Source: Xiphydria camelus (taxonomy: Eukaryota; Arthropoda; Insecta; Hymenoptera; Xiphydriidae). From it: a stretch of DNA of 64,000 nt. This document shows positions 15,460-52,362 of the stretch, piece after piece (positions within the stretch are counted from its first letter, which is position 1; each line of letters starts with the position of its first letter). The position numbers and the translations under genes were made by a program. The notes below the pieces were generated by a model. It was not told where the DNA came from. It did no database searches and worked only from the letters and a program-made list of their open reading frames with translations. Location of the stretch: positions 12,944,822 to 13,008,821 of the forward strand of contig OY783193.1 of assembly GCA_963678675.1 (NCBI GenBank), read 5' to 3'.

Positions 15460-16925
15460 ATGGATATACGTAGACTATTATTGATCAGGAAGCGAATTTT
15501 ATTAGTTGCTGCTTTAAACCTTATTCGTCATAAACGAGCGCAAGCTAGAAAACGAAAAAGGAAGTATTGGATTCGCCCAACTATCACTAGACGAGATGAG
15601 CAAGGAGCAGGTACAAATCTCGTACTAGAAATGTCTCTGAATGATAAGGAATGGTATTTCAACTACATGCGTATGTCACCAGAGACGTTTTATGAATTAT
15701 TAGACTTAGTGTCACCATTAATTGGGAAACAGACGACTAATTGTAGAGAGCCACTTCCACCTCATTTAAGATTAAGTCTAACACTTCGGTAAGTTTGATA
15801 TGTTAATATAATTTAACTCTGTATAATTTGATTACTATTATACATATGTATGTTGTAGGTATTTAGCTTCCGGAGATCTCATGGCATCGATGGCAATGTC
15901 ATACAGAGTAGGCAGAAGCACGGTAACAAATATCATCCGTGAAACTTGTGAATCAATCTGGAATGTATTAAATCCAATAGTATTGTTTCAACCATCAGAA
16001 AAAGGCTGGTTGGAGATAGCACAAGAGTTTGAAGAAAGATGGAATTTCCCCCATTGTGTGGGGGCAATAGATGGAAAGCATGTTGTAATACAGGTAATGT
16101 TCTTGCAAATAAACCTGTTATTTTAAATTATGCTAAGTGTTTATGTGGTACATTAGTTTTCAGTTACCCTTTTTACTATAGAAGAGAAATGTGTATATGA
16201 ATTTATTATAATATTTACAGACACCAGAACATTCAGGTTCTACATATTACAATTACAAGGGCCAGTACAGTATTGTCTTGATGGCAATTGCTTCCGCTTC
16301 ATACCGTTTCCTTATGGTTGACATAGGTGCACAAGGTCGACATAGTGATGGTGGAACTTTTCGGAATTCCATTATGGGACAACGTTTTGCCAACAACGAA
16401 ATGAGTTTGCCATCTCCATCACTACTTCATCCTAATATACCACAACGGGTACCATATGTTTTAGTAGGAGATGCCGCTTTTCAACTAAACAAATTTACAT
16501 TACGCCCATATCCATGTAAACAATTACCACAAAGGAAGGAAATATTTAATTATCGACTTAGTAGAGCAAGAGGTGTTGTTGAAAATACTTTTGGTATCAT
16601 GGCTACACGGTGGAGAATTTTTCGAAGACCCATGAATACCTCGTTAGAAACTACAATTTCAATAGTAAAAGCTTCCGTATGTCTGCATAATTTTTTGATG
16701 CACAAAACCGGTTACAGTCCAGCGGGATATGGAGACTTTGTTAATAAAGAAGGTAATATAGTAGAAGGTCAGTGGAGGCAACAAGAACCTGCTGTAGGTT
16801 TAAATAATATAACAATGGCTGGAGGAAATGCCCATTCTCGGTATGCATCCAAAATTAGAGATACATTTGCATTATACTTAGAAAATGAAGGCGCAATTCC
16901 TTGGCAATATAATCAAGTAGCGTAA
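15460..16925 (+). CDS. PIF/Harbinger transposase (HARBI1-like), three exons
   Basis: Exons 15460-15788, 15859-16093 and 16221-16925 join in frame with GT/AG borders to 422 codons without internal stops. Exon 1 is basic; SYRVGRSTVTNIIRE in exon 2 is a helix-turn-helix. The DDE_Tnp_4 nuclease motifs are present: GAIDGKH (first Asp), GRHSDGGTF (second Asp) and RGVVENTFGI (Glu), followed by the WRIFRR and LHNFL signatures. These proteins cut and join the element's ends with help from the Myb/MADF partner encoded convergently at 17180-19139. Length and motif order fit an intact transposase; activity cannot be judged from sequence alone. Confidence 0.88.
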
Positions 16926-20433: not shown

Positions 20434-21676
20434 ATGGCATCATCGTGTAATGATAGAAATAATATAAGACTTTGGGAAGAAAGTACCGACAGTGAAGATT
20501 CTAGTGATTCTGATGCAGAGTGTGACGAACGTAGAAGGGTAGTAGTTCATAGGGCTCCGAGAAATTTTAGATTCCGTGTCAATCATTTCGAAAGATGGAA
20601 TGATGAAGAGTTCAAAATGAGATTTCGCCTGAGTAAAGAGACGGTGATAATGCTAGAGCAGAGAATTGGAAATGACATAGCACCAAGAACTGAAAGGTAA
20701 ATTTGAACCATATAAAAGCAAATATATTTTACATGCTTGTGAATTTTTCAGGAATCATCCTGTTACTGCAATGCAACAGATACTACTTGTTCTAAGGTTT
20801 TGTGCTACTGGATGTATTCTTCAAAGCATTGGTGACTTTGCGGGTATACATAAAACCACAGCGGGCCAAGTCATCAAGAAAGTACTTAGGAGAATAATTT
20901 CATTAGCACCAGACTATATAAAAATGCCAAGCAACCAGCCAAATCAAGAAACGGTGAAACAGAAGTTTTTCAATGTAGCTCGATTTCCTCGAGTGATAGG
21001 TGCCATCGATTGTACCCATATCAGAATAATTTCACCAGGTAATTTTTATGTTTTGCATTTTGATCTGTATATGTACTTATTTAATTATTAATATGTGTTT
21101 ATAGGAGGAGATAATGCAGAATTCTTTAGAAATCGGAAGGGCTATTTTTCACTGAATGTTCAAGTAGTAGGAGATGCAGATTTATTTATCAGGGATATTG
21201 TTGCTCGTTGGCCTGGTTCAACTCATGACCAGACAATATTTAATAACAGTCGAGTGAAGGCCCGATTTGAAAATGAGGAATTTGGTAATGGAGTACTGCT
21301 TGGCGATTCAGGATATGCTTTAAAAAGATACGTTATAACACCGATACTTAATCCAGCAACACAAGCGGAACAACTGTTTAATGAATCACAAATTAGAACT
21401 CGAAACCCTATTGAAAGGTTATTCGGTGTACTGAAACGAAGGTTTCCTATTCTGTCTCTTGGAATAAGGCTATCTGTTGATATGGCACAATCAGTAATAG
21501 TAGCATGTGCAGTGTTACATAATGTAGCCCGTAGTATGAACGAGCAAGATCCCATTTTTGATTTTGATTTGTTAGACGCTGATGAAAATAATGCGGTTGC
21601 TGATAATAATCATCATAATTTTAGAGAAGATTTTATTGTATATTTTCTAAATTTACTAGAGCCTAATAACAATTAG
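20434..21676 (+). CDS. PIF/Harbinger transposase (HARBI1-like), three exons
   Basis: Exons 20434-20696, 20752-21038 and 21105-21676 join in frame to 373 codons. The N-terminus is acidic (STDSEDSSDSDAE), then RFRLSKETVIMLEQRIG leads to QILLVLRFCATGCILQSIGD and a helix-turn-helix (HKTTAGQVIKKV). Nuclease motifs: VIGAIDCTHI (Asp), WPGSTHDQTIF (Asp) and NPIERLFGVLKRRFP (Glu), then AVLHNVA. All three catalytic positions are retained, and the length (about 370 residues) is normal for HARBI1-like proteins. Partner gene: the Myb/SANT protein at 22443-23508. It belongs to a different Harbinger subgroup from the 15460 transposase, judged by the sequence around the second Asp (WPGSTHD versus GRHSDGG). 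Confidence 0.92.
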
Positions 21677-34164: not shown

Positions 34165-34685
34165 CTATAAAAGGCACAGTTGTACTTTTAAGGCGGAGAC
34201 TTTTACTCGAGAACGAGATAATTGTTGGTTAAATATTCTTTCCGGGGACCCTAATGCGTAATGACCAGGAAAAGGTTTCATGATATTGTTACTGAGGGCG
34301 AATGCACCATCCCCTAAAAAAACGTAGGGCATATTATTATCGCTACCCGGAAGTGGACTAGGAAGGGGTAAATTCAAACTGTTCGATGACAGTTTTTTAC
34401 ATAGAATACTTTGGTTAAATACTCCGCCATCACTTATCCGCCCTTGAGAGCCTATATCGGCAAACATGAAACAATAATTACTATCCACTACTGCCAGTAG
34501 AACGATGCTGAAGCTCCCTTTGTAGTTAAAGTATTCCGATCCCGAGTGTAAAGGTGACTGTATAGTGATGTGCTTGCCATCTAGAGCGCTGAGGCAGTGG
34601 GGGAAGATGAATCCTTCTGATTGTGAAATCCATCCGTCTGTAGTTTGAGGCATCTGAAATGACATGAAATAAGCATTACGTTTCT

Positions 34686-35035
34686 TTTTTCTGTTATAGT
34701 CCTCGTCATCGACACCTAGTGAACAGGGAACAGGCAGAGATATGGAGTCAAACTCTCCCGCAGCTGGGACGAGCATCAACTTCGAAGCTAACAATTCAAG
34801 AGTTCCAGTTGTTAAGCGCCGTTCGAAAAACCCGCCAGAATTAGCAGAGGTCGAGAAAGAAATGTCAAATGCTTTTGGCACATTGAACGGAGTACTTCAT
34901 AGAAGTACTGAAGTAGGAGATGATGATTGTGAATTATACGGCAAACTTCTGGCAACGAGATTGAGGAAATTTTCCGAGAGTGAAAGAGAAGATATTATGT
35001 TAGATATAGATCAAATGTTAGTAAGCAGACGTTGA
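34686..35035 (+). pseudogene. Harbinger 3 accessory protein C-terminus (BESS-like)
   Basis: After an acceptor (CTGTTATAG, 34685) the plus strand reads SSSSTPSEQGTGRDMESNSP and ends LYGKLLATRLRKFSESERED, a BESS-like tail of the Myb/MADF partner protein. The stop at 35033 is TGA, and the same frame then stays open for about 116 codons to a second TGA (about 35388). The N-terminal Myb/MADF exons are absent because the element is truncated to the left. It overlaps the transposase intron on the opposite strand. Confidence 0.55.
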
Positions 35036-41584: not shown

Positions 41585-42419
41585 AAAATTTTATTGTATG
41601 TTTTCTTGATCTCCCTAATCAAACATCGAAATATTTTATATACAGAATTGTAGTCTTCCTGACAAAACATCATGATTGAATTTTAAATATTATTTTGCCA
41701 TGGAACTGCACCGTCAGTGTTAAAATATCTCATAAACTGATCTCTTATCTGACCTGCAGCACGGGTATTCGTGTTGGATCCAACGTTTGTAATATTTAAT
41801 AACGCGGTTTCTTCCAACTGATCTAAGTCAATCTCTTCAACCAAGTTATCGTTATTATTTCGCCTCAACCAATTATGTAGAGAGATTGTAGCTTGTACAA
41901 TTTTTAAAGCTCTTTCTATAGAAGTATTGATTGCCCGTCTATAAATTCTCCATTGGGAAGAGAGAATACCAAACGAACACTCGACAATCCTGCGTGCTCG
42001 ACTAAGCCGGTAATTGAATACTCGCTTCTCTTTTGTTAGACCTCTGCCAGGAAATGGTCGCATCATGTATTCTGTTAATTGGAAGGCTTCGTCTCCAATG
42101 AATACATATGGCAGCACTGGATGACCATTACAGATTAAAGATGGTGGAGGAATATCCATTTTTCCTGTAGCGAGTTTTTGGCCTATTGCTGATTTGTTCC
42201 AAATACCCCCATCACTCTGCCTTCCTGGAGCTCCGATGTCGACAATGCGAAATCTATAATTACTGTCGCATACTGCCATTAAGACAATGCTATGCGAGCC
42301 TTTATAATTATAGTAAGTCGATCCGCTGTTTGGTGGAGCCTGTAATATTAAGTGTTCCGTATTCAGCAAAAGTAGATAATAATTTCCTTAGATATGTAAC
42401 TTCAATGAGTTATTAACCT

Positions 42420-43035: not shown

Positions 43036-43754
43036 GTATTTCATGGACATCATTGAATCTCCAGTTGCTAAGTACCTGTAATAAACATCGTTACAGTTAC
43101 ATTTTTCAACAATGAAAAATAAAATAAGAATACTCTTACAAAAACTGTATTCTTTACCTTAATGTTAGAAGTAAGCGTTCTTGTGGACAGATTGGCTCCG
43201 GAATGTACCTTTTCTTTTGAATGCGTGGTCCGACTAACAGAAGCAGCTCATCGAAACTTGTTTTAGACATTCGGCAGTAATTATGGAAAATCACATCGCT
43301 TTCCAGTAGTCGAGGTATTGTGACATTAAATGCTCCGCATTCATTCCTTTGTTTCAAGAATGGAACTATCCAATGTCTCCTTCTTCGGTGCTTTTGAGGT
43401 TTTTGGAGGTTAATTATTGCAAGAGCAGCAGTAATCGCCAAACGTCGTCTCTGAACTTCTTTTTTGTAGTAATTGTTATACTGCTCACAGTACTCGAAAT
43501 AACCTTGTCTATAAGCATCATACTGTTGAATGCATGCGTTTTTTGATTTTTTTCTTATATGTATTTTTGCATTCATTTTACGTATACAATTAGTATCAAG
43601 TTCTGACGAATTATACAAACACCAATCTTTTACAGTACATATCCAACTTCACCGAAATATGCACAATACGTATCTACACACAATTGATCTTTAGGAAGTT
43701 TTACAGAAATTCTAGATTCTTTCTATATATAACACTTTCGGAACACTGTATGTA

Positions 43755-44318
43755 CACCCGTGCTCACGAAATCTGTCGCTGGGGAATTTCAAGAGGAAGT
43801 TTAGTAGAGTCGCGTATAGATGCCCGATACGGGAGACTAATCGCCGGATAAAGAACCGTCTATCAAGTACGGCGGTAACAAAATTGCAGGATTTGGGATC
43901 AATAGGTTAAGCTTTGTGAATTCGGCGCATAAAGATAACTTTTCGTAAAAAGGAATAGTATAAAGTAGTTGTAACTAAATTGAAAGAAAATTAAATTAAT
44001 TTTGTTTAGATAAAGTGTCGATAGTGTAAAGTAAAATAAAATGTTCATTTAAACTCAAAAAAAAAGCTGTAAACATAACCATTGTAGTCAATTAAAGTTA
44101 TAAATAAATTTTATTGTCTTTGTGCAATTATTATCTCTGTTTATTTATTAAGTCATCATCGTAACGCACGTGTCGGGGCCAACTTTTCACAATTATTTAG
44201 CATTAAATCTTACATTACGTTGTGTAGGAAAACTTTCGCAGAGATCTCAGAACCATCGGCTGATATCTAACTTTAAGCATATCACCTTTGATAGCATTTG
44301 ATTTGTTTAGCAAAACAG
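43755..44318. other. outer part of the left palindrome arm
   Basis: Non-coding, mirrored at 50274-50836. I see no first AGA exon with a start codon or signal peptide here. Confidence 0.5.
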
Positions 44319-45593
44319 GACCATAAATCAATTCTACTGGTCATCATTACATGGAATCATCCAAATTCCACCGATATAGGTAATTACTAAATTGCTCGAG
44401 AAATTTGACCAAATAGATCTATTTTGACTGACAGCTATTGTGTAGACATAGTATCAATTTGTTCTTATCATTTATTTATTTTTATGCTATCAAATACCTT
44501 TACTCGTCTATAGCATGGAATACGACTTATAAGCAGAAGCAGAACGCCATTGATGCAATCGTCCAGAATTGCCGTGAATGCGAACGCTTTCAATGTCGAA
44601 TGACTGTAGGAGTTGGTGGAAACTCGAATGGAGTCCGGAGAAATAACTTTGAACGCAATGATCATGGATGGGTAAGATTATACTACCTGTTATTTTCTGT
44701 TACTTCTTGCAAACATCTTTGATACTCGTAACATTTTCCGGTTTTCTTATCAGCGTCAAAACGGATGTTAGAGCCGTAGGTGGACTGAGGAAGGTAAAGA
44801 ATGCCATTTTGGTCGCTTGTAAAGTCTTGGACAATACCAAACGTATCTTACTAGGAGGAAAACTTGCGACTCAATTCGCCGTTGAAATGGAATTCATCGA
44901 AGAGTCATTGAAAATGACTGAGTCGCAGAAGATGTGGACAAAGTGGAAAGCTAGTAATTGTCAATCAAATTTTTGAAAGGTAACTTACCACAAACGATGC
45001 TACGTCAAGTGTAAAGAGTATAATTCAATTGGATCCTCGCGTTCCTTTTCAGAATATAAAACCGGATCCGACGGAATCGTACAGTCCGTATTATCTAGCA
45101 TCGATAGATAAAGCGCTAAAGGCGGCGCAGTGTTTAAACGAAGATAATTACGACACTATTGGTATCATTGAAATTGATACGAAAGGTCATATAACTGCTG
45201 GTACTTCGACGAATGATGCTGAGAATAAAATTTCCGATCGAATGGGAAACTCTCAGATTCCTAGGGTTGGTACTTACGTGCATCAGGAAGTCGGCGCTGC
45301 TACTGGCATTGGTGATAAGGACATTATGATGCATTTTTTACCAAGGTACCGCTGTAAAATCGAATTGTATCATAGATCGCGTCATGCGTAATCTTTCGTC
45401 TCTCGCAACTCATCTCTCCGTTCTGTCCGATAGTTTTCTTGCTGTAGAGGAGATGCGCTGTGGAGCTGATGCGACTAAAGGCACGTCAATTGTAATCGAT
45501 AGAATTGAAAAGCACTATCCGACATATTTCAGTGCCATTGTCGCGCTGAACAAGACCAGTTATTTTGATGCGACATGTAACGGAAAAAAGTGA
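44319..45593 (+). pseudogene. AGA: aspartylglucosaminidase (AGA) pseudogene, left-arm copy
   Basis: Five exon blocks with GT/AG introns: 44319-44379 (VIITWNHPNSTDI), 44514-44671 (AWNTTYKQKQNAIDAIVQNC, then VGVGGNSN and, shifted, LNAMIMDG), 44754-44979 (VKTDVRAVGGLRKVKNAILV), 45053-45345 (DTIGIIEIDTKGHITAGTST) and 45434-45593 (FLAVEEMRCGAD to the stop). Together they follow lysosomal N4-(beta-N-acetylglucosaminyl)-L-asparaginase almost end to end, including the Thr of DTIG that becomes the nucleophile. The signal-peptide exon is missing. Lesions: one extra G in exon 2 shifts frame before MIMDG; TGG to TGA at 44974; the RxGDS motif reads RMGNS. Retained introns show capture as genomic DNA. Confidence 0.85.
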
Positions 45594-46004
45594 ATAGTTT
45601 ATTACTGCGATTAAATCCAAACAATTTAGAAAATATGGAGTATACATATATGTACCATATATGTATATAAATATTATAATAAAGTAACAGATTTGTTCTA
45701 AAAAACATCAACTAATTTACCGGGGAGACCTAAAAGGACTCTGGAGAGAGTTTTTCCACATTTTTTACACACTTAATTCTAAGGTTTTTCGAATTAAAAA
45801 AAAAATATATTGCAAAGAACTTTTCCCGAGATCACATGGGGTTCCAAGTATTCGTGCTGACCGAGTATGTATTAAATTTAACGTATTAATGAGACACAAA
45901 AAATTAAGAATCTAGTTTAATCGTCTCAATTTTATTCAATTTCGATTGCTTCTTTGTTTCTATCATATTATATTCGAAAGTGGTTATAACAGAAAATCGA
46001 GAAG
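45594..46004. other. region between AGA and transposase, left arm
   Basis: AT-rich. Likely transposase promoter/5' UTR on position; mirrored at 48588-48998. Confidence 0.4.
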
Positions 46005-47022
46005 ATGGCTTTTAGACCAACACTCGAAAACTTAGGAAGACTTCGAGGGATGCTAGAAGGAGGCGTGCCAACTGCGGAGGTAGCAGAGACCATGAACTGT
46101 ATTATGCGCACGGTACAACGCTGGATGAGACGGCTGATCGAGGACGAGCCTTTCCAGGATGGGCGCTGTCATAGTGGACCTGAGAGGATTACGACGCCAG
46201 AAGAGGATGGAGCGATCAGAGATACAATGGCAGAACATCCTTTCCTACCAGCGAAAGCGATTCCCCTTAATCTAAACATTGGAATCAGCCGGCAAACTAC
46301 ACAGCGCAGATTACACGAATCTGGTATTCACTGCAGGAAGGCAGCGAAGAAGATTTTGCTCACGGAGAGGAATAAGGAGCAACGTATCGATTTCGCCATG
46401 CGTCACTTAAATATGACCGTCGAAGAGTGGCGAAAAGTTATTTTCATGGACGAGAAAGTATTCTCCACGGATAAGGACGGCCGATATCGAGTTTGGCGAC
46501 TCAATAATACCCGATACGAGCCCGAAAATATTCTGCCAGTCGTACACAACGGCCGCTCCACCGCAGCGTATTGGGGATGGATGTCCGGCGATGGCGTGGA
46601 GAATCTCGTCGAAATACGAAGAAACTTAAATGCCGAGCAGTACGTTGATTTACTCGATGGCGTGATGCTACCGGCTGTACGAGAACGATATCCTGAAGAA
46701 GAGCTACCGATCATCCGTATCGTCGAGGACAATAGCCCGATCCATACCGCATGTGTCACGAGGACCATCCCGAAATTTCTCGGTTGGATTGACCACCATG
46801 TTCACCAGATATAAACGTAATCGAAAACCTGTGTCCCGGATGACGCAAGATTGGCAACCTGGTTTGGTTCGGCGTCGCAAACATCTGCTGCAGCGAGCCG
46901 TTGCTTCTTGGGAGGATTTGAGGAACGCTCCAGAGTATTGCGAAGCACTTGTCGCATCGATGCCTCATCGTCTACAACCCATACTGGAAAACGGTGGAAA
47001 TGGCATTAATGACGAAGGCAGA
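46005..47022 (+). pseudogene. Tc1/mariner transposase, left-arm copy, frameshifted
   Basis: Identical in start and most residues to the intact copy at 47562-48587 (MAFRPTLENLGRLRGMLEGG). Open through the second Asp (VEDNSPIHTA), then a deletion of about 13 bp near 46760 shifts the frame and ends it at 46814. Coding sequence for the third catalytic block continues in another frame with a further 1-bp loss. Not functional by itself. Confidence 0.88.
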
Positions 47023-47561
47023 GCCCGACCACCCTGGCATCGATTTCGCGAGGACCACATTGACGGTAGCCCCTCTCTCCGTTGTTGCCAGCTGTATCAG
47101 CTTCTCTCTGCAATCAGGTGTGAGGTGTGTCATTCGGTTGAGTATCGAAAAGAGACCCGAATGATTATTTCTTATCACTTCAAAAAACATTACTCACCAT
47201 TATTCAAACATTCACAATTTCTTGGTTACACTTCGATCTCTCGAATTGACAGCTATCGGGAACTTAGACGCTCCACACTCTTCGCTCTAGTATCGGAAAA
47301 GATATATGGCATCGATGCTCCATCGACTGCAAATACCATCTTGTTGAATTCACTGTCTGGGAGTACTACACCGATGTCCAGTTGTCGCACTGATAGTAAA
47401 GTGCTGCACCGATGACCCCATAGAGAATCTGTTATATGAGCAGAATATATATTTTATTATACATATATTATAGCAGAAGTCTCAAAATTGAGTCAAGACT
47501 TCCGCACCTCAAGCATGAGAAACTATATTGGAAAATTTAATTTTTCGTTAATCTGTTACCT
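47023..47561. other. central spacer of the palindrome
   Basis: Unpaired middle. It contains a block (about 47030-47290) homologous to 7719-8340 (TCAGCTTCTCTCTGCAATCA; CGAATGATTATTTC; ATTCACAATTTC), so a repeat of that family occupies the loop. Confidence 0.6.
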
Positions 47562-48587
47562 TCAATAATTGATGCTATTTCCATCGTTATCCAGTATGGC
47601 TTGTAAGCGATGAGGCATCGATGCGGCAAGTGCTTCGCAATACTCTGGAGCGTTCCTCAAATCCTCCCAAGAAGCAACGACTCGCTGCAGCAGATGTTCG
47701 CGACGCAAAACCAAACCAGGTTGCCAGTCTCGCGTCATCCGGGACCACAAGTTTTCGATTACGTTTATATCTGGTGAACATGGTGGCCAATCCAACCGAG
47801 AAATCTCGGGATGGTCCTCATACCAAGCCCTCGTGACACGTGCGGTATGGATCGGGCTATTGTCCTCGACGATACAGATGACCGGTAGTTCTTCTTCAGG
47901 ATATCGTTCTCGAACAGCCGGTAGCATTACGCCATCGAGTAAATCAATGTACTGCTCGGCATTTAAGTTTCTTCGTATTTCGACGAGATTCTCCACGCCA
48001 TCGCCGGACATCCATCCCCAATACGCTGCGGTGGAGCGGCCGTTGTGTACGACTGGCAGAATATTTTCGGGCTCGTATCGGGTATTATTGAGTCGCCAAA
48101 CTCGATATCGGCCGTCCTTATCCGTGGAGAATACTTTCTCGTCCATGAAAATAACTTTTCGCCACTCTTCGACGGTCATATTTAAGTGACGCATGGCGAA
48201 ATCGATACGTTGCTCCTTATTCCTCTCCGTGAGCAAAATCTTCTTCGCTGCCTTCCTGCAGTGAATACCAGCTTCGTGTAATCTGCGCTCTGTAGTTTGC
48301 CGGCTGATTCCAATGTTCAGATTAAGGGGAATCGCTTTCGCTGGTAGGAAAGGATGTTCTGCCAATGTATCTCTGATCGCTTCATCCTCTTCTGGCGTCG
48401 TAATCCTCTGAGGTCCACTATGGCAGCGCCCATCCTGGAGAGGCTCGTCCTCGATCAGCCGTCTCATCCAGCGTTGTACCGTGCGCATAATACAGTTCAT
48501 GGTCTCTGCTACCTCCGCAGTTGGCACGCCTCCTTCTAGCATCCCTCGAAGTCTTCCTAAGTTTTCGAGTGTTGGTCTAAAAGCCAT
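47562..48587 (-). CDS. Tc1/mariner-superfamily transposase, intact, DD35E spacing
   Basis: One uninterrupted 341-codon frame from ATG 48587. The N-terminal half has paired helix-turn-helix DNA-binding segments (GVPTAEVAETMNCIMRTVQR; GISRQTTERRLHEAGIHCRK). The catalytic domain shows VIFMDEKVFS (first Asp), CIVEDNSPIHTA (second Asp) and WPPCSPDINVIENLW (Glu). Counting from the second Asp to the Glu gives 35 intervening residues, hence DD35E. Such enzymes cut out TA-flanked elements and insert them at TA, which agrees with the TA borders here and of the surrounding MITEs. Length and all three acidic residues are normal, so it could be active. Confidence 0.93.
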   Translation of the reverse strand: MAFRPTLENLGRLRGMLEGGVPTAEVAETMNCIMRTVQRWMRRLIEDEPLQDGRCHSGPQRITTPEEDEAIRDTLAEHPFLPAKAIPLNLNIGISRQTTERRLHEAGIHCRKAAKKILLTERNKEQRIDFAMRHLNMTVEEWRKVIFMDEKVFSTDKDGRYRVWRLNNTRYEPENILPVVHNGRSTAAYWGWMSGDGVENLVEIRRNLNAEQYIDLLDGVMLPAVRERYPEEELPVICIVEDNSPIHTARVTRAWYEDHPEISRLDWPPCSPDINVIENLWSRMTRDWQPGLVLRREHLLQRVVASWEDLRNAPEYCEALAASMPHRLQAILDNDGNSINY

Positions 48588-48998
48588 CTTCTCGATTTTC
48601 TGTTATAACCACTTTCGAATATAATATGATAGAAACAAAGAAGCAATCGAAATTGAATAAAATTGAGACGATTAAACTAGATTCTTAATTTTTTGTGTCT
48701 CATTAATACGTTAAATTTAATACATACTCGGTCAGCACGAATACTTGGAACCCCATGTGATCTCGGGAAAAGTTCTTTGCAATATATTTTTTTTTTAATT
48801 CGAAAAACCTTAGAATTAAGTGTGTAAAAAATGTGGAAAAACTCTCTCCAGAGTCCTTTTAGGTCTCCCCGGTAAATTAGTTGATGTTTTTTAGAACAAA
48901 TCTGTTACTTTATTATAATATTTATATACATATATGGTACATATATGTATACTCCATATTTTCTAAATTGTTTGGATTTAATCGCAGTAATAAACTAT

Positions 48999-50273
48999 TC
49001 ACTTTTTTCCGTTACATGTCGCATCAAAATAACTGGTCTTGTTCAGCGCGACAATGGCACTGAAATATGTCGGATAGTGCTTTTCAATTCTATCGATTAC
49101 AATTGACGTGCCTTTAGTCGCATCAGCTCCACAGCGCATCTCCTCTACAGCAAGAAAACTATCGGACAGAACGGAGAGATGAGTTGCGAGAGACGAAAGA
49201 TTACGCATGACGCGATCTATGATACAATTCGATTTTACAGCGGTACCTTGGTAAAAAATGCATCATAATGTCCTTATCACCAATGCCAGTAGCAGCGCCG
49301 ACTTCCTGATGCACGTAAGTACCAACCCTAGGAATCTGAGAGTTTCCAATTCGATCGGAAATTTTATTCTCAGCATCATTCGTCGAAGTACCAGCAGTTA
49401 TATGACCTTTCGTATCAATTTCAATGATACCAATAGTGTCGTAATTATCTTCGTTTAAACACTGCGCCGCCTTTAGCGCTTTATCTATCGATGCTAGATA
49501 ATACGGACTGTACGATTCCGTCGGATCCGGTTTTATATTCTGAAAAGGAACGCGAGGATCCAATTGAATTATACTCTTTACACTTGACGTAGCATCGTTT
49601 GTGGTAAGTTACCTTTCAAAAATTTGATTGACAATTACTAGCTTTCCACTTTGTCCACATCTTCTGCGACTCAGTCATTTTCAATGACTCTTCGATGAAT
49701 TCCATTTCAACGGCGAATTGAGTCGCAAGTTTTCCTCCTAGTAAGATACGTTTGGTATTGTCCAAGACATTACAAGCGACCAAAATGGCATTCTTTACCT
49801 TCCTCAGTCCACCTACGGCTCTAACATCCGTTTTGACGCTGATAAGAAAACCGGAAAATGTTACGAGTATCAAAGATGTTTGCAAGAAGTAACAGAAAAT
49901 AACAGGAAGTATAATCTTACCCATCCATGATCATTGCGTTCAAAGTTATTTCTCCGGACTCCATTCGAGTTTCCACCAAATCCTACAGTCATTCGACATT
50001 GAAAGCGTTCGCATTCACGGCAATTCTGGACGATTGCATCAATGGCGTTCTGCTTCTGCTTATAAGTCGTATTCCATGCTATAGACGAGTAAAGGTATTT
50101 GATAGCATAAAAATAAATAAATGATAAGAACAAATTGATACTATGTCTACACAATAGCTGTCAGTCAAAATAGATCTATTTGGTCAAATTTCTCGAGCAA
50201 TTTAGTAATTACCTATATCGGTGGAATTTGGATGATTCCATGTAATGATGACCAGTAGAATTGATTTATGGTC
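48999..50273 (-). pseudogene. AGA: aspartylglucosaminidase (AGA) pseudogene, right-arm copy
   Basis: Mirror copy of 44319-45593 with the same exon/intron structure (exons about 50273-50213, 50078-49921, 49838-49613, 49539-49247, 49158-48999). It shares both the extra-G frameshift and the TGG-to-TGA stop, so these lesions predate the palindrome. It differs at a few codons (VGFGG versus VGVGG; CNVLD versus CKVLD; DRIGN versus DRMGN). Confidence 0.85.
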
Positions 50274-50836
50274 CTGTTTTGCTAAACAAATAAATGCTAT
50301 CAAAGGTGATATGCTTAAAGTTAGATATCAGCCGATGGTTCCGAGATCTCTGCGAAAGTTTTCCTACACAACGTAATGTAAGATTTAATGCTAAATAATT
50401 GTGAAAAGTTGGCCCCGACACGAGCGTTACGATGATGACTTAATAAATAAACAGAGATAATAATTGCACAAAGACAATAAAATTTATTTATAACTTTAAT
50501 TGACTACAATGGTTATGTTTACAGCTTTTTTTTTGAGTTTAAATGAACATTTTATTTTACTTTACACTATCGACACTTTATCTAAACAAAATTAATTTAA
50601 TTTTCTTTCAATTTAGTTACAACTACTTTATACTATTCCTTTTTACGAAAAGTTATCTTTATGCGCCGAATTCACAAAGCTTAACCTATTGATCCCAAAT
50701 CCTGCAATTTTGTTACCGCCGTACTTGATAGACGGTTCTTTATCCGGCGATTAGTCTCCCGTATCGGGCATCTATACGCGACTCTACTAAACTTCTTCTT
50801 GAAATTCCCCAGCGACAGATTTCGTGAGCACGGGTG
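50274..50836. other. outer part of the right palindrome arm
   Basis: Mirror of 43755-44318; non-coding. Confidence 0.5.
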
Positions 50837-50838
50837 TA

Positions 50839-51149
50839 CCATATGTCCGCGATCAATTTTACCATAGGAAAATTGCGATTATTGCATGAGCACCTCTGCG
50901 GGTCTCCTCGTCCAATAGAATCACCGGAGAAGCGTGACTGCGCATGCGTAGTCATCCGCGAGTGCAGTTCGACCGACGCGAGAATCGAAATCGAAATCGA
51001 ACTGCACTCGCAAACGTCACGCCAACACTCGCGGTGACTACGCATGCGCATTCACGCTTTTCCGTTGATTCTATTGGACGAGGAGACCCAAGCGGTGCTC
51101 ATGCAATAATCGCAATTTTCCTATGGTAAAATTGATCGCGGACATATGG
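50839..51149. mobile_element. foldback MITE, CCRTATGTCCGCG family
   Basis: Palindrome directly after the TA that ends the AGA element (50837-50838); it ends at the TA 51150-51151, which also starts the next MITE. Near-identical to 29625-29937. Confidence 0.92.
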
Positions 51150-51151
51150 TA

Positions 51152-51467
51152 CCGTATGTCCGCGATCATTTGAACCATAGGAAAATTGCGAGTTTTGCAT
51201 GAGCACCCCTTTGGGTCTCCTCGTCCAATAGAATCACCGGAGAAGCGTGAATGCGCATGCGTAGTCATCCGCGAGTGTGGCGTCGTCAGCAAGTTCAGAT
51301 CGATTATTTCGATAACCGATCTGAACTTGCTGACGACGCCACACTCGCGGATGACTACGCATGCGCATTCACGCTTCTCCGGTGATTCTATTGGACAAGG
51401 AGACCCAAAGGGGTGCTCATGCAAAACTCGCAATTTTCCTATGGTTCAAATGATCGCGGACATACGG
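51152..51467. mobile_element. foldback MITE, CCRTATGTCCGCG family
   Basis: A 316-bp palindrome, near-identical to 39299-39614; the right TA (51468-51469) is shared with the following CACCC MITE. Confidence 0.92.
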
Positions 51468-51469
51468 TA

Positions 51470-51677
51470 CACCCGGGGACACGGTATCTGTCGCTGGTGA
51501 CTTTTTTTAAACGTTATTTTTAAACGTACTAACTAATGATTAATAATCCTCATGCTTTCATTAATGAGAGTAGACGCCACCGTAGCTAATGAGCGCATGA
51601 GAATTAATTGTTCATTAGTTAGTACGTTTAAAAATAGCGTTTAAAAAAGTCAGCGACAGATACCGTGTCCCCGGGTG
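51470..51677. mobile_element. CACCC-family MITE (copy 4)
   Basis: CACCCGGGGACACGG ... CCGTGTCCCCGGGTG between TA 51468-51469 and TA 51678-51679. It lacks a few bases of the CACCAG inner motif on its right side (GTCAGCGACAG). Confidence 0.92.
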
Positions 51678-51679
51678 TA

Positions 51680-52210
51680 CCGTACACCCGTGCTCACGAA
51701 ATCTGTCGCTGGTGACTTTTTTTAAACCTTATTTTTAAACGTACTAACCAGTGAACAATTAATTCTCATGCCCTCATTAGCTACGGTGACGTCTACTCTC
51801 GTTAATGAAAGCACGAGGATTGATTAATCATTGGTTAGTACGTTTAAAAATAACATTTAAAAAAAGTCACCAGCGACAGATTCCGTGAGCCCGGGTGTAT
51901 GTCCGCGATCATTTGAACCATAGGAAAATTGCGAGTTTTGCATGAGCACCCCTTTGGGTCTCCTTGTCCAATAGAATCACCGGAGAAGCGTGAATGCGCA
52001 TGCGTAGTCATCCGCGAGTGTGGCGTCGTCAGCAAGTTCAGATCGGTTATCGAAATAATCGATCTGAACTTGCTGACGACGCCACACTCGCGGATGACTA
52101 CGCATGCGCATTCACGCTTCTCCGGTGATTCTATTGGACGAGGAGTCCCAAAGGGGTGCTCATGCAAAACTCGCAATTTTCCTATGGTTCAAATGATCGC
52201 GGACATACGG
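51680..52210. mobile_element. foldback MITE interrupted near its tip by another MITE
   Basis: The terminal CCG (51680-51682) and the TA after it are separated from TGTCCGCGATCATTT (51900) by the 51685-51897 MITE, which duplicated that TA. The rest of the palindrome runs to CGG at 52210, then TA. Near-identical to 51152-51467 and 39299-39614. Confidence 0.9.
51685..51897. mobile_element. CACCC-family MITE with the AGA element's termini
   Basis: Begins CACCCGTGCTCACGAAATCT, identical to the first 20 bases of the 43755 element, and ends GAGCCCGGGTG. Inserted at the TA inside the end of another MITE; TA flanks both sides. Confidence 0.92.
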
Positions 52211-52362
52211 TACATACGTAATTATAAAACTGTCGCGCGAACACCCTATTTCATTCCTCCGACAAAATATCTGCGACGGACTCCCCACCCAATTTTACCA
52301 TAGCCAATCGGAGTGATTCGTCGCGCACGACAATCCGTCGCGTCGCTGCAATGTATCAGGCT

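Follow-up and report, generated by a model that had tools for sequence, protein, structure and literature searches.

A 64,000-nt stretch of the genome of the hymenopteran Xiphydria camelus, here called the window, contains a palindromic transposon of the Tc1/mariner type. Each of its arms holds most of a host gene for aspartylglucosaminidase (AGA) next to a transposase gene (Table 1). Inverted-repeat search and arm alignment place the arms at 43752-47012 and 47568-50839, with a 555-bp spacer between them; over 3259 aligned columns they differ by 40 substitutions and 16 gap columns (98.8% identity). A 30-bp repeat is found at 43753 (+) and again at 50838 (-), against an expectation of 0.00 (mean of 100 shuffles), and both of these tips begin at TA. 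From tip to centre, each arm comprises ~550 bp of element DNA, the AGA block, ~137 bp of filler, ~280 bp of element DNA, and the transposase gene. Similar tips bound miniature inverted-repeat transposable elements (MITEs) of ~216 bp at six places in the window, so the tips are the ends of a transposon family that is common here. The filler contains an internal AT-rich inverted repeat and is present in those AGA carriers read that extend to it.

We searched the assembly (357 Mb, 38 contigs) with 2 kb of the left arm as query, which gave 46 matches. Seventeen of these stretches were read, then 3 more, and the counts given here come from the stretches read (labels beginning with C and L are our own, for contigs and loci). 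We identified six further full-length palindromes (L010-L014 and L017) and seven partial copies (L009, L015, L016, and L018-L021), which with the window makes 14 AGA-carrying places. All seven full copies measure between 7067 and 7229 bp and are 99.12-99.75% identical. They are distributed over five contigs, each at a separate place and in a different flanking context, so the palindrome and its cargo spread as one unit. This bears out the proposal of an earlier, sequence-only reading that a single TA-flanked Tc1/mariner-type unit lies here: the palindrome is bounded by TA and recurs at full length elsewhere. Apart from the host origin of the AGA block, nothing favors the idea that the block is ordinary host sequence flanked by insertions of two unrelated transposons, and we regard it as refuted, since the block recurs with the same junctions and tips in the seven full and the partial copies, the palindrome ends coincide with transposon ends, and the parental gene lies elsewhere, without tips. 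An inverted-duplicate chimera, arising in assembly or in reads, is extremely improbable. Long, near-identical inverted arms are a familiar form of such artefacts, but the arms carry the substitutions and gaps counted above, the spacer is asymmetric, and differences between left (L) and right (R) arms recur in copies at other loci. Exact scans of viral and prokaryote contigs for the terminal inverted repeat (TIR) found 0 matches. A search for further proteins from AGA carriers, limited to lengths of about 74-236 aa, gave 1 candidate and no scored match.

The right-arm transposase frame begins at a methionine and has the Pfam domains HTH_Tnp_Tc3_2 (5e-15) and DDE_3 (3.9e-14). It aligns with Sleeping Beauty transposase (PDB 5cr4; 7.1e-28), including the residues D, D, and E. 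The Tc1 spacing value is DD34E; counted by eye on the PDB alignment, the D-to-E spacing here is one residue above it. This frame is full length in 4/7 full copies and in one partial copy, and the left-arm frame is short in 7/7. TA is found at both ends in 5/7 full copies, with one end altered in the other two. Placement in Tc1/mariner follows from the transposase and the TA: the target is TA, and the transposase is of DDE type with a Tc-type helix-turn-helix (HTH). The superfamily's usual short terminal repeats around one transposase gene are not seen here; instead, short ends tip 3.26-kb arms that together hold two transposase genes. The element thus shares TA ends and an HTH_Tnp_Tc3_2 plus DDE_3 transposase with Tc1 and Sleeping Beauty-like transposons, and differs from them in being a 7-kb palindrome with two head-to-head transposases.

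Within the left arm, the AGA block has four introns of 134, 82, 73, and 88 nt, all bounded by GT..AG, and its exons splice into AGA order. The conceptual peptide (305 aa, with X at a frame slip and a stop) matches insect AGA at best with 5e-99; the search listed 55 proteins, the first 26 being 18 named Hymenoptera and 8 without organism name. It also matches human AGA (1apy; 1.4e-39 and 4.9e-28), and two single frames match Pfam Asparaginase_2 (4.7e-15 and 2.1e-11). The similarity to AGA is therefore overwhelming, and the five exon blocks per arm, the canonical introns, and the nucleophile Thr of DTIG that the sequence-only reading had described are all present. The capture of a whole gene was also claimed. 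Nearly all of the gene is there in five exons, but the block begins ~15 codons into the host frame and ends ~26 codons short of the host end, so that it lacks the start codon, the codons of the signal peptide, and the final ~26 residues. Likewise, a transposase does stand beside AGA in each arm as had been stated, although only the right one is full length and the left one is broken. Two lesions, an extra base in exon 2 and a stop in exon 3, were correctly read as shared by the arms. They occur in both window arms, in 14/14 arms of the full copies, and in 8 arms of seven partial copies where the site patterns were located. Alignment to 1apy places changes at the positions equivalent to human Asp237 and Thr257, which we take to be active-site residues. 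With these two changes and the Thr nucleophile kept, and with no start or signal peptide and with a frame slip and stop in 14/14 arms, the captured gene is unlikely to encode a functional AGA. There are 11 distinct 21-mers common to the captured AGA copies and the host AGA coding sequence, and a hairpin-RNA role of the paired copies was considered as a possibility.

The donor was identified in the same assembly. An intact AGA gene of 341 codons lies at C1:40733458-40734892, with five exons and introns at the same four places. Homology between this locus and the transposon arm is 82% and limited to arm positions 554-1834, and no TIR was found within 3 mismatches in 7 kb around the host gene. 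Thus the AGA block travels with the element and its parent lies elsewhere. Because the introns are retained, copying took place at the DNA level, as had been proposed. Captured and host introns 2-4 are separated by Kimura two-parameter distances of 0.12-0.14, and intron 1 by 0.30 with a difference in length. A search of the assembly with an AGA protein found no other intact close AGA; two distant matches (35 and 37% identity) presumably belong to the wider AGA family. A 38-protein tree that includes the host gene makes captured and host AGA sisters (support 100/99), with tips of 0.7 and 0, and groups the pair with two sawflies (98/98). An affinity with ants had been considered, as the transposase matches named ants and a first AGA tree placed the captured copy beside ants without support (64/64); it was dropped after the tree with the host gene. 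A horizontal origin of the captured AGA is rejected by its sister relation to the host gene and by the test of a placement inside non-Hymenoptera (approximately unbiased test, p-AU 0.028). About 325 bp beyond the host AGA stop, the motifs TACACCC and GGGTGTA face each other across 9 nt (L022:2113-2135, C1:40733112-40733134). This 23-bp palindrome of end-like motifs beside the donor may be the relic of a former element, or chance.

Since its capture the AGA copy has decayed. Host and captured exons give a nonsynonymous distance (Ka) of 0.135 and a synonymous distance (Ks) of 0.245, a ratio of 0.55, in a count from which the stop, the first three and last two residues, and the four codons at the frame slip were omitted. 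Of the 82 amino-acid differences, 57 arose in the captured copy and 6 in the host gene, and 19 are ambiguous, so that the captured side accounts for 57 of the 63 polarised changes. From this bias and the ratio we conclude that the passenger decays freely; the ratio fits a free pseudogene compared with a constrained host gene. At columns invariant among Hymenoptera the captured AGA has a new residue in 34/119. Control rows from Hymenoptera or the ant clade have 0-3 of 119-122 in nine cases and 4/118 in a tenth, and eight rows outside that set have 5-12 of 117-119 (among the 19 rows listed of 37). Taken from host to captured and not polarised, 80/127 exon differences are G to A or C to T.

Might AGA instead be selected cargo that worked long after capture and failed only recently? 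A neutral simulation (293 codons, first 10 residues skipped) under four mutation schemes expects 4.3-4.6 stops where 1 is seen (P 0.03-0.08). It is this simulation that leans toward weak constraint on the captured AGA during part of its time, and the intact GT..AG of all four introns and the preserved nucleophile also agree with past function. But a Ka/Ks of 0.55 is the value that a free pseudogene compared with a constrained host gene gives, the changes at invariant columns go far beyond the control rows, two active-site positions are altered, and neither start codon nor signal peptide was captured. We therefore consider long service as selected cargo improbable.

The order in which capture and palindrome arose can be read from relatives of the element that are free of AGA. 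Four were identified (Table 1), and in three of them (L024+L026, L033, and L034) two head-to-head transposase regions flank the right half of the same spacer, at 81-85% identity. The palindrome therefore predates the AGA capture, unless the relatives lost AGA. At the AGA position (arm 534 to 1975) L024 has a 760-bp stretch of its own, parts of which are matched by L025 (~490 bp), L033, and L034 at 83-90%; this stretch was found in 0/8 AGA carriers examined. At the left junction of the AGA block, CATCTG is common to host AGA and the AGA-free element, which hints at a microhomology-guided switch.

The differences between the window arms are not evenly distributed. Of the 40 substitutions, 33 are crowded into the inner 0.86 kb, which leaves 7 for the outer 2.4 kb. 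When the differences were placed at random 20,000 times, the outer part never received so few, and the longest run without a difference has a p of 0.0001. In the comparison of 14 arms, L014 and L017 carry the R type at positions 2126-2272 in each of their arms (in L017 through 2430), the window and L012 carry the L type in each of theirs, and the L/R difference is kept in L010, L011, and L013. Private changes occur in both arms of one copy four times (twice in L012, once in L011, and once in L017) and in a single arm 42 times. The arms thus convert each other, and their identity gives no date for the palindrome. The likeness of the arms is due to arm-to-arm conversion and a recent burst, not to youth, contrary to the claim that few arm differences make the palindrome recent.

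These results also bear on the sequence of events that the sequence-only reading had preferred, in which AGA was taken up by an ordinary Tc1 element with one arm and decayed there before the arms were duplicated into a palindrome. That both lesions are common to the arms in 7/7 full copies, and that the outer arms are so alike, would be expected under it. Conversion and a burst from one decayed master explain the shared lesions, so these no longer date decay before arm duplication. L023, an older carrier with 87-89% similarity to the window arm in its matching pieces, bears private lesions but not the exon-2 insertion; the AGA capture preceded that insertion. With three AGA-free palindromes sharing the spacer half, and with clustered arm differences and conversion tracts, we think it unlikely that the palindrome came last.

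AGA is not the only host gene in the arms. The arm that lacks the element stretch in L033 and in L034 contains ~2.3 kb of other DNA (L033:4556-6871, minus strand; L034:302-2545, plus strand), 89-94% alike between the two. One of its frames matches Pfam Hobbit/FMP27/BLTP2 (5e-12). A single Hobbit gene with long open frames, the intact host copy, is present in the assembly (C20:10271797-10276492), and host DNA from about C20:10271183 to 10272901 (~1.7 kb) matches the arm stretch of both loci at 82-89%. A gap in the Pfam match at 10272117-10272192 suggests one intron inside the capture. No match to the transposon arm was found in the 2.3 kb read at host Hobbit, and the Hobbit frames of L033 and L034 are interrupted by stops that the host gene lacks. 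Hobbit DNA adjoins element DNA at a minimum of six places (L033, L034, and C17:14.44, C20:11.83, C10:24.57, and C6:19.95 Mb), a lower bound from scoring 40 of 1436 candidates. At one of the six (L036) the Hobbit block lies between two inverted tips, with no transposase in the 3 kb read. AGA is found in both arms, and Hobbit in one arm only of the two palindromes read (L033 and L034). The element family thus caught host genes at least twice, in the same arm interval. Three AGA-carrier stretches at C20:10.22-10.27 Mb lie within ~50 kb of the host Hobbit gene.

Taken together, we propose, with a probability of about 0.93, that a palindromic Tc1/mariner-type family takes up host DNA in an interval of its arms, and that AGA was captured in this way, doubled, decayed, and spread. 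The starting state would be two head-to-head transposase genes around a spacer, with ~30-bp tips and a TA target, and host DNA would repeatedly enter the interval between tip and transposase. In the AGA lineage, ~490 bp of element DNA were replaced by ~1.28 kb of host AGA and ~137 bp of filler, a replacement and a source that can be seen by comparing AGA-free relatives and donor; the route may have been repair or a template switch, of which the shared CATCTG is a hint. Conversion between arms, as observed in the copies, would then have doubled the capture by placing AGA in the second arm, and relatives like L033 and L034, with a second gene in one arm, may resemble the state prior to doubling. 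The captured AGA lost constraint and decayed while one transposase frame stayed full length. The decayed master spread as a whole unit to the 14 places, most likely moved by its own or a relative's transposase. Several findings weigh against parts of this account. Each AGA-free palindrome shows the replaced element stretch in a single arm, which makes the original state of both arms less certain: the other arm is deleted there in L024 and holds the Hobbit block in L033 and L034. The filler at the right junction is matched in AGA carriers alone, and the shortage of stops in the simulation sits uneasily with free decay throughout. Movement as a whole unit is read from the copies, and no empty target site was seen. 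Some flanks consist of MITEs that adjoin the element and have the same ends as it, making the target hard to delimit there. Of the 14 places, three fall inside one 25-kb stretch of C20 and may represent fewer than three insertions.

More broadly, the arm interval may be a standing capture site, where genes enter one arm with their introns and are doubled by conversion, a general route into both inverted repeats. Two donors (AGA and Hobbit/BLTP2), one-arm and two-arm states, and conversion tracts in one genome would fit such a site, and we would put the chances for and against it as even.

Host pieces in inverted-repeat elements are already known from Turmoil-1, Ssk-FB4, and Pack-TIRs, as far as the available text of the reports goes. 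Turmoil-1, a Harbinger element of C. elegans, is likewise a cut-and-paste transposon and carries two host coding pieces close together in each of its inverted repeats, one piece having an intron. The available text describes these pieces as under no selection for frame or splice sites and tentatively infers a capture hotspot (PMC2572040). Its fragments measure 205 and 131 bp in 760-bp repeats, in contrast to ~1.28 kb and five exons in kilobase arms here, and the Tc1/mariner-type case has donor, AGA-free palindromes, and recent burst at hand. Ssk-FB4 of Drosophila, as far as it is described in the text at hand (PMC8277862), is also a near-complete, intron-bearing gene in an inverted-repeat element at several loci. 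FB4 is a non-autonomous element with target duplications of 9-10 bp, and the cargo it expresses is likely functional, in contrast to the TA target, transposase frames, and decayed passenger described here. The same source, in its available part, surveys 370 Pack-TIRs in 100 animals, 115 of them TcMariner, with none in insect reference genomes. Pack-TIRs too are TIR elements holding duplicated host DNA, with a parental copy outside the element (here the C1 gene) and retained introns (here four, at identical places). The present element differs in being multicopy, in having transposase genes, and in holding the host block twice. Pack-TYPE elements are described as non-autonomous in the available text of PMC8903248; the full-length right-arm frame in 4/7 copies suggests that non-autonomy may not apply here.

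A search of titles and abstract beginnings in the open-licence literature found no AGA-carrying transposon among the entries listed. What appears to be new is a nearly whole five-exon gene, held twice in a palindromic Tc1/mariner-type element with putative transposase frames. Also new is the presence of donors, forerunners, and burst together in one genome. How cut-and-paste elements gain host genes, and why cargo sits in both inverted repeats, is poorly resolved. Two donors, AGA-free palindromes, one-arm and two-arm captures, an older carrier, and a burst in one assembly make the order of events testable. The element provides a clear example from an insect, in a superfamily where the accessible part of PMC8277862 reports none from insect reference genomes. 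It also shows that arm identity fails to date a palindrome where the arms convert each other.

Table 1. Features of the element in the window, and AGA-free relatives elsewhere in the assembly.
Feature	Position	Strand	Basis or remark
Complete palindromic Tc1/mariner-type element, TA to TA, 7086 bp	43753..50838	.	Inverted repeats, ends, six further full-length copies at other loci
Left terminal inverted repeat	43753..43782	+	End search; similar ends on ~216-bp MITEs
Right terminal inverted repeat	50809..50838	-	End search
Left captured AGA block, host-derived, five exons and four introns	44305..45588	+	82% DNA match to host gene, restricted to block
AGA exon 1, partial, without start codon or signal peptide	44311..44379 (left-arm start also given as 44301)	+	Splice reading, host comparison
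AGA exon 2, one-base insertion	44514..44671	+	Splice reading, host comparison
AGA exon 3, premature stop close to end	44754..44979	+	Splice reading, host comparison
AGA exon 4, nucleophile Thr	45053..45345	+	Pfam domain, splice reading
AGA exon 5, ends at CNG	45434..45588	+	Splice reading, host comparison
Filler, AGA block to element DNA	45589..45725	+	Matched in AGA carriers alone
Left transposase, broken	46005..47012	+	13-nt deletion near 46759; frame stops at 46814
Central spacer	47013..47567	.	Right half 47288-47567 also in AGA-free palindromic relatives; left half resembles repeats elsewhere in window
Right transposase, full-length 341-codon frame	47562..48587	-	HTH_Tnp_Tc3_2 and DDE_3
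Right captured AGA block, mirror of left	49004..50287	-	Exons 50213-50281, 49921-50078, 49613-49838, 49247-49539, 49004-49158; positions mirrored from alignment seeds
AGA-free relative L026+L024	C29:17181565-17186641		Palindromic
AGA-free relative L033	C1:26.81 Mb		Palindromic
AGA-free relative L034	C17:19.94 Mb		Palindromic
AGA-free relative L025	C6:26.57 Mb

The surroundings of the element are rich in other repeats. At 50836-52214, five abutting MITEs of two families (in the order A, A, B, B, A) are joined at TA, and MITEs of these families likewise abut several full AGA carriers. Frames for DDE_Tnp_4 transposases at 16212-16925, 21092-21676, 34165-34896, and 41683-42387 mark the window as transposon-rich, and a tandem array of CCTG with ~384 copies occupies 1123-2657.

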